Origin: Chryseobacterium taklimakanense
GTDB lineage: Bacteria > Bacteroidota > Bacteroidia > Flavobacteriales > Weeksellaceae
DNA length: 64,000 nt
Assembly (NCBI RefSeq): GCF_900187185.1
Contig: NZ_LT906465.1
Location: 620,001-684,000 of the forward strand
Reading direction: 5' to 3'
Of the stretch, positions 9,461-45,743 are shown piece after piece. The position numbers and the translations under genes are program-made. The notes under the pieces were generated by a model, which saw nothing but the letters and a program-made list of their open reading frames with translations, ran no database searches and was not told the origin of the DNA. The first letter of the stretch is position 1. Each line of letters starts with the position of its first letter.

Positions 9461-10459
9461 TTAAAAATCAATCTTTTGTAGCCAACTGAAAAGTTCGTCA
9501 TACACTTTTTCGCGCACCGGTTTTTTGGAAAGCACCAAATCGTGAATGCCGCCTTTTACGGGAATTATCGTGACATTCCCCTTAAAATTTTCAGCATTTT
9601 TATGAATATCCTTCACGTTCAGGATGATATCGGTAGAAGTCACTTCCTCATTCCAGACTTTTGGATAGCCCGATTTTTCAGAATGCATCACCAATACCGG
9701 AACCTTTAGTTCTGCGTTGCGGATGTCTTTCTGTGCGCGGTGAATCGCACGGATAAAGCCAAAATTCACTTTCCCGTTGGCATTGGGTTTCAGTTTTAAA
9801 TCATAATTCCATTCGCCCTTAAAATCTTTATGCAGGCTTTCACCGTAGAAAGTGGAAAATCCACCGCCAATTTTCGTGTCAGGATAATATTTTCCCAAAC
9901 CGCTGATGATGGGAACTCCAATTTTTTTTGCCAGAAACCCCATATTGAAATCATAAAACGGACTGTTCACCCAAAGTCCGGTAATGTTCGGATTTCCAGT
10001 GTGATATTTCATATACCGTGTCGTAATCAAGCCGCCGGTTGAGTGCCCTGCCAACAGAATTCTGTTATGATTTTCAGCAGCAATGATTTTTAAAGCTTCA
10101 TCGATTTCGGCATTGTATTCGTCCAGATTTCTGACATTATTAAAAGTTTGATGCGGCAGATACGAACGTCCATATTTTCTTAAATCCAAAGCATAAAAGT
10201 CAAACCCTTTTTCATTGAATTTTTCAGCCATTTCCGCCTGAAAGAAATAATCGTTAAACCCGTGAATATACAGCACTGCCTTATGGGTCGGACTTTCCGC
10301 TTTTTTGCGGATGATAGTTGCGGTAACTTTTCCTTCGTAATCGTTGGGGAAATTCAATGTTTTCTGCTCAAAACCGTTTCCCAAAATATCCGGCTTATAT
10401 TCCTGAGAAAAGAAAAACCCCGAAAGGAAAATCAGCAGCAGTAAAAAGTTGTTTTTCAT
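9461..10459 (-). CDS. Secreted alpha/beta hydrolase (serine lipase/lysophospholipase type)
   Basis: A 332-residue alpha/beta-hydrolase-fold esterase. MKNNFLLLLIFLSGFFFSQ is a signal peptide, so it should act in the envelope. VLYIHGFNDYFFQ is the oxyanion-hole segment, RILLAGHSTGGLITTRYM holds the nucleophile Ser in G-H-S-T-G, and VKGGIHDLVLS carries the catalytic His near the C-terminus. The pattern resembles Hydrolase_4 (monoglyceride lipase/lysophospholipase). I use the ATG at 10459 because the one at 10516 lies inside a dyad regulatory site (10508-10525), upstream of the -7 box at 10480-10487. This promoter shares its architecture with those of oleate hydratase and the TolC efflux operon. 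Confidence 0.85.
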   Translation of the reverse strand: MKNNFLLLLIFLSGFFFSQEYKPDILGNGFEQKTLNFPNDYEGKVTATIIRKKAESPTHKAVLYIHGFNDYFFQAEMAEKFNEKGFDFYALDLRKYGRSYLPHQTFNNVRNLDEYNAEIDEALKIIAAENHNRILLAGHSTGGLITTRYMKYHTGNPNITGLWVNSPFYDFNMGFLAKKIGVPIISGLGKYYPDTKIGGGFSTFYGESLHKDFKGEWNYDLKLKPNANGKVNFGFIRAIHRAQKDIRNAELKVPVLVMHSEKSGYPKVWNEEVTSTDIILNVKDIHKNAENFKGNVTIIPVKGGIHDLVLSKKPVREKVYDELFSWLQKIDF

Positions 10460-39527: not shown

Positions 39528-42500
39528 TCACATCGCATCCATCTGGAAATTCATACTTTCCACCACCTTCAAAATAGCTTCCACAGTATCCATCGATGTC
39601 AGACACGGAACGCCGTTTTCCACCGACATTCTGCGGATCTGGAAACCGTCCCGCTCAGCCTGTTTTCCTTTGGTCATTGTGTTTACGACGTACTGCACTT
39701 TTCCTTTTTGGATCAGGTCGATCAGATTCACATCTTCCTCCCCGATTTTATAACCGATCTTGCACGGAATTCCTTTTTCCTCGAAATGTTTTGCCGTGCC
39801 TTCGGTTGCCCAAATCCGGAACCCTGTTTGGTGGAATCTGCGGGCCAAAGCAGCGGCTTCATCCTTGTGCTTATCAGCAACGGTAAAGAGAATTGAACCG
39901 TGAGTCGGCACTTTTCTTCCGGCACCAATGAGGCCTTTGTACAGGGCTTTTTCCAGCGTGGAATCTTTGCCCATCACTTCGCCGGTGGATTTCATTTCCG
40001 GGCCTAAGGAAATATCGACTTTCGTGAGTTTTGAGAATGAGAAAACCGGAACTTTAACGAAAACACCGTCTTTTTCAGGAACCAGTCCGTTTTCATGACC
40101 GAGATCTTTCAGTTTGGCTCCGAGAATGGCTTTGGTAGCCAGATTAGCCATCGGAACATCCGTGATTTTTGAAAGGAAAGGCACCGTTCTTGATGAGCGC
40201 GGATTCACCTCAATCACATAAACCTGGTTTTCAAATAAAACGTATTGAATATTCATCAAACCAATCACATTGAGACCTTTAGCCAATTTTTGGGTATAAT
40301 CTACTAACTGCTCCATGCATTTTTCATTGATATTCTGTGGCGGATACACCGCAATCGAGTCACCGGAGTGAACGCCGGCCCTTTCGATATGCTCCATAAT
40401 TCCGGGAATGACCACGGTTTCGCCGTCGCAGATCGCATCCACTTCCACCTCTTTTCCGGTCATGTATTTGTCGACCAAAACCGGTTTTTCCGGATCCACT
40501 TCCACCGCATGTTCCATATAGTGCGAAAGTTCTTCCTCGTTGTAAACAATTTCCATCGCGCGACCGCCCAACACATAACTCGGGCGAACCAAAACCGGAT
40601 AACCTATTTCATTGGCAATGCCGATTGCGCCTTCTTTGGAGTAGGAGGTCTGCCCTTTCGGTTGCGGAATTCCCAGTTCCTGAAGTGCTTTTTCAAATTT
40701 ATCGCGGTTTTCGGCTCTGTCCAGATCTTCCAGCGAAGTTCCCAAGATCTGAACGCCGTGCGCAGCCAGTTTATCCGCCAAATTAATCGCAGTTTGTCCG
40801 CCAAACTGTACGATCACGCCTTTTGGTTTTTCCAGTTCGATGATGTTCATCACATCTTCTTCGGTCAACGGTTCGAAATAAAGTTTATCTGAAACCGAGA
40901 AATCCGTGGAGACCGTTTCAGGATTATTATTGATGATAATCGCCTCGTAACCCATCTCCTGAATCGCCCAAACCGAGTGCACTGTGGCATAATCAAACTC
41001 TACACCCTGTCCGATTCTGATTGGCCCGGAACCCAAAACGATGATCTTTTCTTTGCCTGAGACCACGCTTTCGTTCTCGTCCTCGTAAGTTCCATAGAAA
41101 TACGGCGTCTCACTTTCAAATTCCGCAGCGCAGGTATCGACCATTTTGTAAACCGGCATTATACCGTTCTGCTTGCGGATTTCAAAAACTTCGCGGTTGG
41201 TGATTCCCCAAAGATAGCCGATGTTTACGTCGGAAAATCCCAGTTTTTTGGCTTCGAGTAAAATTTCGTTGTTAAATTTATTCTCCGAAATCGTTTTTTC
41301 AAAATCGACCAGTTTCTTCATTTTCCAAATGAAAAATTTGTCAATTTTGCTCCATTCCACGAGTTGTTCCCAGTCGTAACCGCGCCTCAAGGCATCACCG
41401 ATGATGAAAAGTCTTTCGTCGTCGGCCACTTTTATTTTGCGTTCCACTTCAGCAGGATCGGCAAAAAGCGCATCGGCCTGTTTTTTCTTTAAACCTAAAT
41501 GGCGGATGCCCGTTTCCAGTGAACGGATCGCTTTTTGCAGAGATTCCTCAAAATTTCTACCGATGGCCATCACTTCGCCCGTTGCTTTCATTTGGGTTGA
41601 AAGCCGGCGGTCTGCGGTTTCAAATTTATCGAAAGGAAAACGCGGAAACTTGGTCACCACATAATCCAGAGCCGGTTCGAAACACGCGTAAGTCTTTCCT
41701 GTAACCGGATTCATGATTTCGTCCAAAGTCAAACCAACGGCAATTTTTGCAGCGATTTTTGCAATCGGATAACCGGTCGCCTTACTCGCCAACGCCGATG
41801 AACGCGAAACCCTTGGATTTACTTCGATGATATAATAATTGAAAGAATGCGGATCCAGGGCCAACTGTACGTTGCAGCCACCCTCGATTCCCAGTGCGCG
41901 AATGATTTTCAAAGAAGCATTTCGCAGCAACTGATATTCCCGGTCTGAAAGTGTTTGCGAAGGCGCCACCACGATGGAATCTCCGGTGTGAATGCCCACC
42001 GGATCGATGTTTTCCATATTGCAAACCACGATGGCGTTGTCATTAGCGTCGCGCATCACTTCGTATTCAATTTCCTTGAAACCGGCGATGGATTTTTCAA
42101 TCAAACACTGCGTTACCGGCGAATATTTCAGGCCGAGTTCGGCAATTTCTTTCAGTTGGGTTTCATCATTTGCGATTCCGCCACCGGTTCCGCCCATCGT
42201 AAAAGCGGGGCGAACAATCACCGGATAACCGATTTCTTCGGCAAACTTCAGCGCGCCTTCCACGGTGTTCACAATGTCGGATTCCGGAACAGGTTCATTG
42301 AGTTCGTGCATCAGTTCACGGAAAAGGTCCCGGTCTTCAGCCTGGTTGATGGCCGAAAGTTTTGTTCCCAAAACTTCCACATTGCACTCTTCCAGAATTC
42401 CCGATTTTTCCAATTCCACGGCCATATTCAGTCCCGTTTGTCCGCCCAAAGTCGGTAAAAGCGCATCAGGCCTTTCTTTACGAATGATATGACTTACAAA

Positions 42501-42713
42501 CTGAAGCGAGATCGGTTCTATATACACTTTATCAGCGATTTCCACATCCGTCATAATCGTAGCCGGATTGGAGTTGATGAGAATCACGCGGTAGCCTTCT
42601 TCCTTCAGTGAAAGGCAAGCCTGCGTCCCCGAATAATCAAATTCTGCGGCCTGTCCGATGATGATGGGACCGGAACCGATAACGAGGATGGTTTTTATAT
42701 CTGTTCTTTTCAT
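39528..42713 (-). CDS. carB: Carbamoyl-phosphate synthase large subunit
   Basis: A 1061-residue enzyme that makes carbamoyl phosphate from bicarbonate, ammonia from CarA and two ATP. It contains two homologous ATP-grasp halves. The first begins [26 protein letters not shown] and includes [19 protein letters not shown]; the second begins [24 protein letters not shown] and includes [20 protein letters not shown]. The C-terminal MGS-like domain ([27 protein letters not shown]...[21 protein letters not shown]) is the allosteric site for UMP and similar effectors. Length is normal. It is the last gene of the pyrB-carA-carB group, separated from carA by a four-helix-bundle gene and a tandem repeat. 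Confidence 0.97.
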
Positions 42714-43012: not shown

Positions 43013-43360
43013 ATTTAATTTCTGCTTGAAACTATAAATCATTTTCTGAATTTCCAGCAAATCAGCAAGAATTTCACTTGCTAAATCATCCTTAATAAGT
43101 TCTAAGTCTTTTGCTAAAATTAGCTGTGTCTGAAGTTCAAAAGCTGACCCCAAAGCAATTGCCAGAAAATGATTGAATTCTTTATTATTGTTTCGTCCAC
43201 TTCCTTCAGCAATATTTGAAGGAATTGATACAACACTTCTTTTCATTTGAGAAATAAGTCCGAATTTTTCATCGGCAGAAATATTTTGGCATATCAAATA
43301 GATATTCTTTGCCAGAACAATTGATTTCTGCCAAAAAATTAATTTCTCGAAATTATGCAT
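43007..43360 (-). CDS. Four-helix-bundle protein (23S rRNA intervening-sequence type)
   Basis: A 117-residue all-helical protein of the S23/IVP family (PF05635): FEKLIFWQKSIVLAKNIYLICQNIS, FGLISQMKRSVVSIPSNIAEGSGRNNNKEFNHFLAIALGSAFELQTQLILAK, DLLEIQKMIYSFKQKL. The central SIPSNIAEG..R...EF is the family hallmark. These proteins are encoded in intervening sequences of 23S rRNA and elsewhere in genomes; their role is unsettled. Here the gene sits inside the car operon: its ATG overlaps the end of carA by 8 bases, its end runs into the 44-bp repeat array, and inverted GAGCCRAGA-type repeats flank it. A decayed second copy lies at 44559-44683. Confidence 0.88.
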   Translation of the reverse strand: MHNFEKLIFWQKSIVLAKNIYLICQNISADEKFGLISQMKRSVVSIPSNIAEGSGRNNNKEFNHFLAIALGSAFELQTQLILAKDLELIKDDLASEILADLLEIQKMIYSFKQKLNS

Positions 43361-44459
43361 AGTCTTGATTCTTGGTTCTAGGCTCTTGGCTCTTAAATTT
43401 TTCCATCATATCAATAAACTCATCAAACAAATAATTCGCATCTTCCGGGCCGGGGCTTGCCTCCGGGTGATATTGCACAGAGAAACAAGGATGAATTTTG
43501 TGACGGACACCTTCGTTGGTACGGTCGTTCAAAGCGATGTGGGTTTCTTCGAGGTCGGTATTTTTCAAACTTTCCTGATCCACTGCATAACCGTGATTTT
43601 GTGAAGTAATCGCGACTTTGTTTGATTTTAATTCCAAAACAGGATGATTTCCACCGCGGTGGCCGAATTTCAGTTTATAAGTTTTCGCGCCGCAAGCCAG
43701 AGAAATCAACTGGTGGCCAAGGCAAATCCCAAAAATCGGAACTTTCCCCAGAATTCCGCGAATCATTTCCTGAGCGTGCGGCACATCTTGAGGATCGCCG
43801 GGACCGTTGGAAAGCATCACGCCGTCTGGTGCCATAAGCATAATATCCTGAGCAGTTACATTTTGTGAAACAACCGTTACATCGCAATCGCGCTGGTTGA
43901 GCTCGCGCAGAATTCCGTTTTTTGAACCGAAATCGACCAAAACTACTTTGAAACCGCGTCCCGGACTTGCATAACTGCTTTTCGTGGAAACGTTAATGAC
44001 CTGGTCTGTAGGAAATGTTATGGATGAAAGTTCTTCCACAACAGTTTTTTCATCTGCTTCTGCATTGACGATTTTTCCCTTGACAGTCCCTTTATCGCGG
44101 ATTAGTCTGGTCAGGCGTCGCGTATCGATTCCTGAAATCCCGCTGAGATTTTTGGCTTTAAAGAATTCATCCAGTGAAAGCAGCGATCGGAAATTGGATG
44201 GAAGGTCGCAGATTTCTTTTACAATTAAACCTTTTATAGCCGGTTCAATGCTTTCATAATCGTCGCGGTTGATGCCGTAATTTCCGATCAGCGGATACGT
44301 CATACAAACGATTTGCCCTGCATAGGACGGATCCGAAAGCAGTTCCTGATAACCGGTCATTCCTGTGTTGAAAACCACTTCTCCTTCCGTATCGGCATTC
44401 GTTCCGAAACCTGTTCCGTGAAAAACTTCACCGGACTCCAATATTAATTTTTTCTTCAT
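43353..44459 (-). CDS. carA: Carbamoyl-phosphate synthase small subunit (glutaminase)
   Basis: A 368-residue glutamine amidotransferase that supplies ammonia to CarB. The N-terminal domain begins KKKLILESGEVFHGTGFGTNADTEGEVVFNTGMTGYQE. The GATase domain has the catalytic Cys in IFGICLGHQLISLACGAKTYKLKFGHRGGNHP and the His-Glu in FSVQYHPEASPGPEDA. The last 12 or so residues (SQEPRTKNQDYA) are encoded by GAGCCAAGA-type repeat sequence from the adjacent four-helix-bundle element, not by normal carA sequence. The protein should still be active, since the family usually ends near DEFIDMMEKF. Confidence 0.96.
   Translation of the reverse strand: MKKKLILESGEVFHGTGFGTNADTEGEVVFNTGMTGYQELLSDPSYAGQIVCMTYPLIGNYGINRDDYESIEPAIKGLIVKEICDLPSNFRSLLSLDEFFKAKNLSGISGIDTRRLTRLIRDKGTVKGKIVNAEADEKTVVEELSSITFPTDQVINVSTKSSYASPGRGFKVVLVDFGSKNGILRELNQRDCDVTVVSQNVTAQDIMLMAPDGVMLSNGPGDPQDVPHAQEMIRGILGKVPIFGICLGHQLISLACGAKTYKLKFGHRGGNHPVLELKSNKVAITSQNHGYAVDQESLKNTDLEETHIALNDRTNEGVRHKIHPCFSVQYHPEASPGPEDANYLFDEFIDMMEKFKSQEPRTKNQDYA
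43361..43394 (-). repeat. Inverted terminal repeat of the four-helix-bundle element, carA side
   Basis: On the minus strand the sequence contains CTAGAACCAAGAATCAAGA. On the plus strand the far end of the element (42994-43012) contains CTAGAGCCGAGATTCAAGA. The two are inverted copies with 3 mismatches in 19 bases, so the element has terminal inverted repeats and its transcript could fold end to end. Confidence 0.6.
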
Positions 44460-44462
44460 TTT

Positions 44463-44520
44463 TTAGATTCTAGAGTCAAGAACCGAGAACCGAGAGCCGA
44501 GATCCGAGAATCAGGAATTA
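44463..44520. repeat. GAGCCGAGA-type repeat between pyrB remnant and carA
   Basis: TCAAGAACCGAGAACCGAGA followed by GCCGAGATCCGAGAATCAGG repeats the same 7-base module (RACCGAG/GAGCCGAGA) as the 44-bp array at 42721-43012. It lies between the carA start and the decayed four-helix-bundle copy. Confidence 0.75.
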
Positions 44521-44558
44521 AGATTCCAGACTCCGGAACCGGATTTGAGACTCACGTC

Positions 44559-44683
44559 TACGACTGCAATTTATTTTTAAAAGTATAAATCATTTTCTGT
44601 ATTTCAATTAAATCAGACAGCAGTTTGCCGGCATTATCCAGATTTAACAGATTCAATTCTTTCGGCAATTTTAATTGAGTTTG
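44559..44683 (-). pseudogene. C-terminal remnant of a second four-helix-bundle gene
   Basis: Translating the minus strand from 44683 gives QTQLKLPKELNLLNL, then DNAGKLLSDLIEIQKMIYTF and KNKLQS before a stop. This aligns with the last 41 residues of the intact copy (QTQLILAKDLELIKD...LADLLEIQKMIYSFKQKLNS). The first three quarters of the gene and its start codon are missing. GAGCC-type repeats flank it on both sides, and the stop codon of pyrB lies in one of them. Confidence 0.85.
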
Positions 44684-44717
44684 GGGCCTTGGCTCTCGCG
44701 GTTATCCCGTCTTGGCT
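44684..44717 (-). repeat. GAGCCAAG-type repeat after pyrB
   Basis: Minus-strand TAGAGCCAAGACGGGATAAC followed by CGCGAGAGCCAAGGCCCC; the TAG is the pyrB stop codon. It is the partner, in inverted orientation, of the repeat at 44463-44520. Confidence 0.6.
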
Positions 44718-45608
44718 CTATTCAAACTCAAATCCCTTACTTTCCAGAGCATGTTTCAGAATCGCCATTCTCGCGAAAACGCCGTTTTCCATTGCTTTAA
44801 AGATTCTGGATCTTTCACATTCCACCAAATCGCTGTCGATTTCCACGCCGCGGTTGATGGGTGCCGGGTGCATGATAATCGCTTCGGGTTTCATCGCTTT
44901 TTCGCGTTCTTTGGTTAAACCATATTTTTTGTGGTATTTACCCAGAGAAATCTGCATTTTCTCGCCGTGGCGTTCGTGCTGGATCCTCAGTAAAATTAAA
45001 ACATCTACTTCTTTCACCAAATCGTCGAGTGCAACAAAAGTTCCGTTGATGATCGCTCCTTCGTCAAACCATTCGGAAGGCCCTGAAAAATAAACTTTCG
45101 CACCCAGTTTTCTCAATGCCTCCGCATTGGAATTGGCGACGCGCGAGTGTTTTACGTCGCCTACAATACCGATCTTCAAACCTTCAAATTTTCCAAATTC
45201 CTGATAGATCGTCAACAGATCGAGCACTGTTTGTGTCGGATGGGAACCTTTTCCGTCGCCGCCGTTGATTACCGGCAAATCTATGCTTTCGAGCTCCTTA
45301 TAATATGCATCCTGGAAATGGCGAATCACAACAAGATTAACACCCAAAGCTTCCAAAGTTTTTACGGTATCGTAGAGGCTCTCTCCTTTATTTACAGAGC
45401 TTGTACTCACATCAAACGGCACAACCTGCAAACCCAGTTTCCTTTCAGCAATATCAAAACTAGTTTTGGTACGCGTACTGTTTTCATAAAATAAGTTGGA
45501 AACAAAAATTTCGGATTTTGCTTTTGAAATTTTTCCGTTTGCAAAAGCATCGGCATCGTTCAACAGCTCTTTGATGGTTTCCGGCGCCAGGTCGCTAATT
45601 GTGAGCAT
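44718..45608 (-). CDS. pyrB: Aspartate carbamoyltransferase catalytic subunit
   Basis: A 296-residue ATCase that joins carbamoyl phosphate and aspartate, the first committed step of pyrimidine synthesis. The carbamoyl-phosphate site is [19 protein letters not shown], with the mobile Lys in [37 protein letters not shown] and [20 protein letters not shown] hold further ligands, and [13 protein letters not shown] the aspartate loop. It is slightly short (about 305 is usual). No pyrI or pyrR gene is adjacent. A leader ORF and terminator precede it, so attenuation is likely. Confidence 0.95.
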
Positions 45609-45624
45609 AATAGGTAGGTTTTAA

Positions 45625-45656
45625 TATAAAAAAAACGAAGCCAATAAGACTTCGTT
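45625..45656 (-). terminator. Attenuator-type terminator upstream of pyrB
   Basis: AACGAAG and CTTCGTT form a 7-bp stem across 9 bases, followed on the minus strand by eight T, only about 17 bases before the pyrB ATG. The stem starts in the stop codon of the 24-codon leader ORF. There is no other gene upstream on this strand for it to end, so it fits an attenuator. Confidence 0.75.
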
Positions 45657-45729
45657 AGATAAAATAAATATTGTCGATATCGGCATTGCCGCCGAATGAT
45701 AAATCGTCTAAAGGATTCGTTGCATTCAT
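45655..45729 (-). CDS. Putative pyrB leader peptide
   Basis: A 24-codon ORF: MNATNPLDDLSFGG followed by NADIDNIYFI, ending at TAA. Its last codons are U-rich (AAUAUUUAUUUUAUCUAA) and run straight into the terminator stem before pyrB. The -7 box TATCTTTG is at 45736-45743, so the ATG lies at or within a few bases of the transcript start. The arrangement (leader ORF, U-rich pause region, terminator, pyrB) is that of the pyrBI attenuator of enteric bacteria. The peptide itself need not have a function. Confidence 0.6.
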   Translation of the reverse strand: MNATNPLDDLSFGGNADIDNIYFI

Positions 45730-45735
45730 TGGCTG

Positions 45736-45743
45736 CAAAGATA
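45736..45743 (-). promoter_or_regulatory. -7 box of the pyrB operon promoter
   Basis: TATCTTTG on the minus strand is a perfect TAnnTTTG match; no good TTG -33 element is visible. It lies 7 bases upstream of the leader-peptide ATG. Confidence 0.6.

Follow-up and report, generated by a model that had tools for sequence, protein, structure and literature searches.

A predicted transcription attenuator built like the enteric pyrBI leader stands in front of pyrB across the Weeksellaceae

The window, by which we mean the whole 64-kb stretch of DNA analyzed here, comes from a genome of the family Weeksellaceae, whose named relatives in this study belong to Chryseobacterium, Kaistella and Riemerella. 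On its minus strand the window encodes pyrB, the gene for the catalytic subunit of aspartate carbamoyltransferase (44718..45608, with the ATG at 45608; NF002032, 355 bits, over cut-off), followed by carA as the second gene of a presumed operon (43353..44459; NF009475, 483 bits, over cut-off) and, farther downstream in the same direction, by carB (39528..42713; NF003671, 1629 bits, over cut-off). A gene for a four-helix-bundle protein (TIGR02436; 43007-43360, minus strand) lies between carA and carB, sharing 8 bases with the end of carA. The upstream neighbour of pyrB, acs, is transcribed divergently from it.

The whole leader of pyrB spans 45743..45609 of the minus strand. It opens with a -7 box, TATCTTTG (45736..45743), of the Bacteroidota sigma-A type TAnnTTTG, and no second -7 box was found within 200 bases upstream of pyrB. 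A 6-nt interval, CAGCCA (45730..45735), which holds the predicted transcript start, leads to the ATG (45729) of a short ORF, MNATNPLDDLSFGGNADIDNIYFI, comprising 24 codons and a TAA stop (45655..45729, stop at 45657-45655). Inside this ORF we identified a hairpin, TCGGCGGCAATGCCGA (45680..45695; -8.6 kcal/mol), that we propose as an RNA polymerase pause hairpin, and about 10 nt past it begins a U-rich stretch (45657..45671), a putative UTP-sensitive pause region. The last element, recovered by the terminator scan, is an intrinsic terminator with the stem-loop AACGAAGTC-TTATT-GGCTTCGTT (45634..45656), followed by a T-run 3' of the stem (45626..45633) that is evident from both the sequence and the scan. 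Folding gave a stem of 9 bp with -10.8 kcal/mol on its own and a z of -5.7, and 23 nt separate it from the intra-ORF hairpin (45695-45680). Since acs is divergent, this terminator cannot be the end of an upstream gene. A preliminary description of this DNA had listed -7 box, 24-codon ORF, U-rich end, terminator and pyrB in this order, which is confirmed on the minus strand; it had also placed the beginning of the terminator stem in the stop codon, and the stem (45656-45634) indeed includes the final two bases of the TAA (45657-45655). The intra-ORF hairpin was absent from that description.

F. psychrophilum has its sigma-A box at -12 to -5 (PMC9723704). By inference from that other genus, the 5' UTR of the pyrB leader would measure about 1-2 nt, which fits the earlier proposal of an ORF that begins at the transcript start or directly beside it.

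The leader was recovered in 28 of the 29 sampled Weeksellaceae genomes that carry pyrB, and in 80/80 named loci of the Chryseobacterium clade. A scripted tabulation of 107 leaders placed the -7 box 5-7 nt before the ATG in every one, with an interval of 6 nt in 100 of them, 5 nt in six and 7 nt in one; L038, a named locus, and a few others carry an extra, more distant -7 box. One genus, g17, has an ATCase that is 51-53% identical, the most distant of the family, and a leader that is longer and differently built. At four of its loci (L138, L172, L174, and L175) a different terminator, AAAACATCTT..AAGATGTTTT, is present and a longer open frame runs through it, while at L173 no terminator was found in the stretch read; we therefore count g17 as a divergent form and not as a confirmed leader.

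Beyond the family, none of 23 genomes from other families of the order had a pyrB leader at E < 0.02. Terminators located before pyrB were read in nine other Bacteroidota, none of them with this leader, and the stretch preceding the terminator there mostly resembles the end of the upstream gene. The preliminary description had been framed for Bacteroidetes at large; this scope is too wide, as the leader was found in Weeksellaceae only and the other families sampled are without it. A literature search of open-licence papers found pyr attenuation described for no member of the Bacteroidota. Within Weeksellaceae, seven genomes had no pyrB match (G007, G009, G018, G021, G027, G028, and G030) and no leader match below E 0.04; it is possible that they are pyrimidine auxotrophs or, in two cases, incomplete genomes. 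Weak RNA-model matches in G012:C15 and G034:C20 were taken as chance, since no pyr gene lies nearby.

Comparison of the leaders showed that the short ORF is kept as an open frame. The frame set by the ATG is open to 12 nt or less from the terminator in 27/28 leaders (1/28 and 6/28 for the other frames), and in 1,000 base shuffles the number of open frames had a mean of 5.3 and a maximum of 12. The stop codon lies 8 nt or less upstream of the terminator in 20/28 leaders; among the deviating ORFs, that of L014 stops 16 nt upstream of the terminator, those of L012, L015, L017, L018, and L022 run well into or past it, and that of L005 has no stop before pyrB. Changes between close leaders, counted over pairs that are not independent, were non-synonymous in 896 of 967 cases and synonymous in 71, with no visible sign of purifying selection on the peptide sequence. 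Apart from the start, all leader peptides have no residue in common. The leaders thus preserve the length and openness of the frame but not the peptide, a pattern expected if what counts is the passage of a ribosome alone.

A hairpin of 4-8 pairs can form inside the ORF of nearly every leader, at a distance of 15-31 nt from the terminator (E. coli pyrL: 38 nt), with stems as different as GGGCG..CGCCC, CAACTCA..TGAGTTG, TTAGAGG..CCTCTCTAA, and CGGTT..AACCG, among others; in L003 and L006 the scripted hairpin search found none inside the ORF. The intra-ORF stem score summed over 28 leaders was 227, against a mean of 64 and a maximum of 114 in shuffles. Both this hairpin and the terminator vary in sequence between leaders and keep their position and pairing. 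In an alignment of 43 sequences, double-sided changes occur in all five counted pairs of the intra-ORF helix (helix 1) and double changes in 5/9 pairs of the terminator helix, and this covariation was reached by 0/500 shuffles, with slid controls far lower. Paired cells make up 99.7% of the terminator helix and 70.5% of helix 1, the latter probably undercounted because a few divergent leaders are misaligned.

The U-rich stretch has an equally defined position. Across 31 leaders, the fraction of U after the 3' end of the hairpin is 13-45% at positions 1-9 and 57-83% at positions 10-21, broadly a rise from about 25% to 70-80%. In the 27 leaders tested for a complement to the 5' arm of the terminator, none was longer than 5 nt and none was conserved. 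Rfam returned no gathering-score match in the window; the only matches near the leader were sub-threshold and no better than chance (E of 0.56 or more). The preliminary description had named conservation in related species as a check, and the ORF, the U-run and the hairpin are indeed kept throughout the family with a variable peptide sequence.

Judged from these sequences, we regard the leader as a genuine transcription attenuator that occurs family-wide ahead of pyrB and shares the plan of the enteric pyrBI attenuator. As in E. coli pyrL, pyrB is preceded by a short ORF with an internal hairpin and then by an intrinsic terminator, the ORF reaches the terminator, and no conserved anti-terminator is seen in the Weeksellaceae leaders. 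The U-run begins about 10-11 nt past the hairpin (11 in E. coli): read in the same way, E. coli pyrL shows the hairpin GCGTCTGAAAAAAGACGC, ten bases, and then UUUUUCUU from nt 11. There are also differences. The Weeksellaceae ORF usually stops at the first base of the terminator, whereas the E. coli ORF runs through it, and the gene after pyrB is carA here but pyrI in pyrBI. Two features seem to be the leader's own: a leader ORF that is predicted to be nearly leaderless, unlike that of E. coli pyrBI, and a proposed pause hairpin conserved in structure, as seen from its covariation. The E. coli pyrL pause, in contrast, has been reported to be independent of structure, in vitro requiring neither NusA nor hairpin pairing (PMC9291695), so that the pyrBI class can do without a structural pause hairpin.

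We consider it likely that the pyrB leader works as a pyrBI-type transcription attenuator, through pausing, catch-up of the ribosome and occlusion of the terminator, presumably in dependence on UTP. Transcription would start 1-2 nt before the ATG of the leader ORF, and a ribosome would load at the very 5' end of the transcript. For his-type pauses it is established that about 10-12 nt separate a newly extruded hairpin from the growing end of the RNA, so that the polymerase would enter the U-run while the hairpin forms; in this leader, the hairpin at 45695-45680 would emerge with the polymerase about 10-12 nt on, where the U-rich codons begin. At low UTP the polymerase may linger in the U-rich stretch and allow the ribosome to close the gap, reach the stop at 45657-45655 and cover the 5' arm of the terminator, which would permit read-through into pyrB and carAB. 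At ample UTP the polymerase would stay ahead of the ribosome, the terminator would form, and the transcript would end at about 45626. As no anti-terminator is evident, a ribosome on the terminator arm is what remains to prevent termination, a logic published for the pyrBI leader in the work of Roland et al. (1988), as cited in PMC4824070. The preliminary description had proposed the pyrBI logic for this leader, and it stands as the working mechanism, given a geometry that matches E. coli pyrL and alternatives of the trp type, through PyrR or as a riboswitch that are disfavoured.

A leader-peptide attenuator could also sense a signal other than UTP, such as ribosome loading on a leaderless mRNA or the overall speed of transcription, in which case the U-stretch would be merely AT-rich. 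The signal cannot be read from anatomy alone, initiation on a leaderless mRNA may be regulated in its own right, and the genome is AT-rich. We nevertheless judge this reading unlikely: the U content is sharply placed 10-21 nt past the hairpin rather than spread over the leader, and an RNA-model search of the leader's own genome gave a single match, in front of pyrB only. We also scanned for the pattern of a -7 box, 4-8 nt, an ATG, and an ORF of 8-60 codons. It was matched only once in the window, at the pyrB leader with its terminator, and another 1.56 Mb of this genome contained 88 such short ORFs, with a terminator in only two of them, of which one is an evident trp attenuator and the other a methionine-rich ORF that looks accidental.

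This trp attenuator of the same genome, near-leaderless like the pyrB leader, is located in L231 (G000:C1:40001-60000, minus strand, near 9674). It consists of TATATTTG, 5 nt, and the ORF MKAITNNTWWWPLKLSSGLAH with three Trp codons, with a terminator-like stem 33 nt past the stop; the product of the following gene resembles, by inspection, anthranilate synthase TrpE. A leaderless leader-peptide attenuator has also been described for ilvBNC of Corynebacterium (PMC11857589).

Control by PyrR or another RNA-binding protein, which would act on the leader hairpin and steer termination, is a further alternative, and PyrR-dependent attenuation, found in Bacillota and with pyrR also present in other Flavobacteriales, controls the same pathway. 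Searches with the PyrR model NF003549, for which control genomes were positive, gave a hit over cut-off in 17/17 pyrB-bearing genomes sampled from the order's other families, where the place and strand of the hit put pyrR just before pyrB (for example G041:C18:98131-98661). Coding sequence runs close to pyrB in most of the pyrB upstreams read in these families, and a leader ORF followed by a terminator of the pyrB-leader kind was absent from the pyrR upstreams read there. PyrR over cut-off was, however, missing in 36/36 Weeksellaceae genomes, and the phosphoribosyltransferases of the leader's own genome were assigned by inspection to Hpt, Prs, Apt, PyrE-PyrF, PurF, Upp, and ComF. Neither the loops nor the stems of the hairpins hold fixed bases common to all leaders, so no fixed binding sequence is present, and an anti-terminator is lacking as well. 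Protein control of the leader is accordingly very improbable.

We hold it to be equally improbable that the leader acts by amino-acid attenuation of the trp kind, or through a stalling peptide that senses a metabolite. Many leader peptides end in N-I-Y-F-I or similar, the genome has a trp attenuator, and the pyrB leader shares a near-leaderless ORF and a terminator with leaderless trp-type attenuators (Corynebacterium ilvBNC and the genome's own trpE leader). Unlike these, it has neither a series of codons for a single regulatory amino acid, which was not found in the leader peptides, nor an alternative anti-terminator or other competing RNA structure. The endings, moreover, vary from NNIYFI to QYFY, PQQSVYLY, and TIIFF, with only the start common to all and mostly non-synonymous changes.

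That the element is a plain terminator or a chance hairpin with no regulatory role is scarcely credible, for although terminators are common and several terminator-like sites are expected by chance in the region scan, the upstream gene is divergent and the full arrangement is kept across the family with compensatory changes.

Weeksellaceae PyrB resembles the B. subtilis enzyme more than those of E. coli or other Bacteroidota: it scored 343 bits against the solved structure from B. subtilis, about 123 bits against E. coli, and at most 216 bits against other Bacteroidota; we take the structures 3r7d and 2at2 to be the B. subtilis enzyme. No sequence resemblance of the pyrB leader to enteric pyrL was seen by eye. 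This, together with a pyrB nearer to the Bacillota type and the absence of the leader in the other Bacteroidota sampled, makes convergence likelier than common descent, and the Weeksellaceae leader and the enteric pyrBI attenuator are probably convergent. The simplest reading of the sequences is that a Bacillota-type pyrB took the place of a pyrR-pyrB pair and that a new attenuator was then made. We are inclined, with some reserve, toward a fuller account in which Weeksellaceae independently evolved an attenuator that senses UTP and is coupled to the ribosome, at the point where the native pyrR-pyrB gave way to a Bacillota-type pyrB without PyrR, with a nearly leaderless transcript and a structurally conserved pause hairpin, and in which close coupling of transcription and translation in Bacteroidota is implied.

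On this account, the same RNA switch would have been built, probably independently, in a second phylum, and in exactly those genomes that are without the usual regulator PyrR. The order would offer a clean natural exchange within one pathway, with PyrR in some families and an RNA/ribosome switch in another. The leader may also provide a genetic handle on whether Bacteroidota ribosomes trail RNA polymerase closely enough to prevent termination, a question on which we found little.

Apart from the leader, the spacer between pyrB and carA (window 44460-44717) contains word-like degenerate repeats, and similar degenerate repeats are present in spacers near pyrB in relatives, with GATGATAGATGATAGATG in L007 and CAGACTTCAGATTTCAGACTG in L009.
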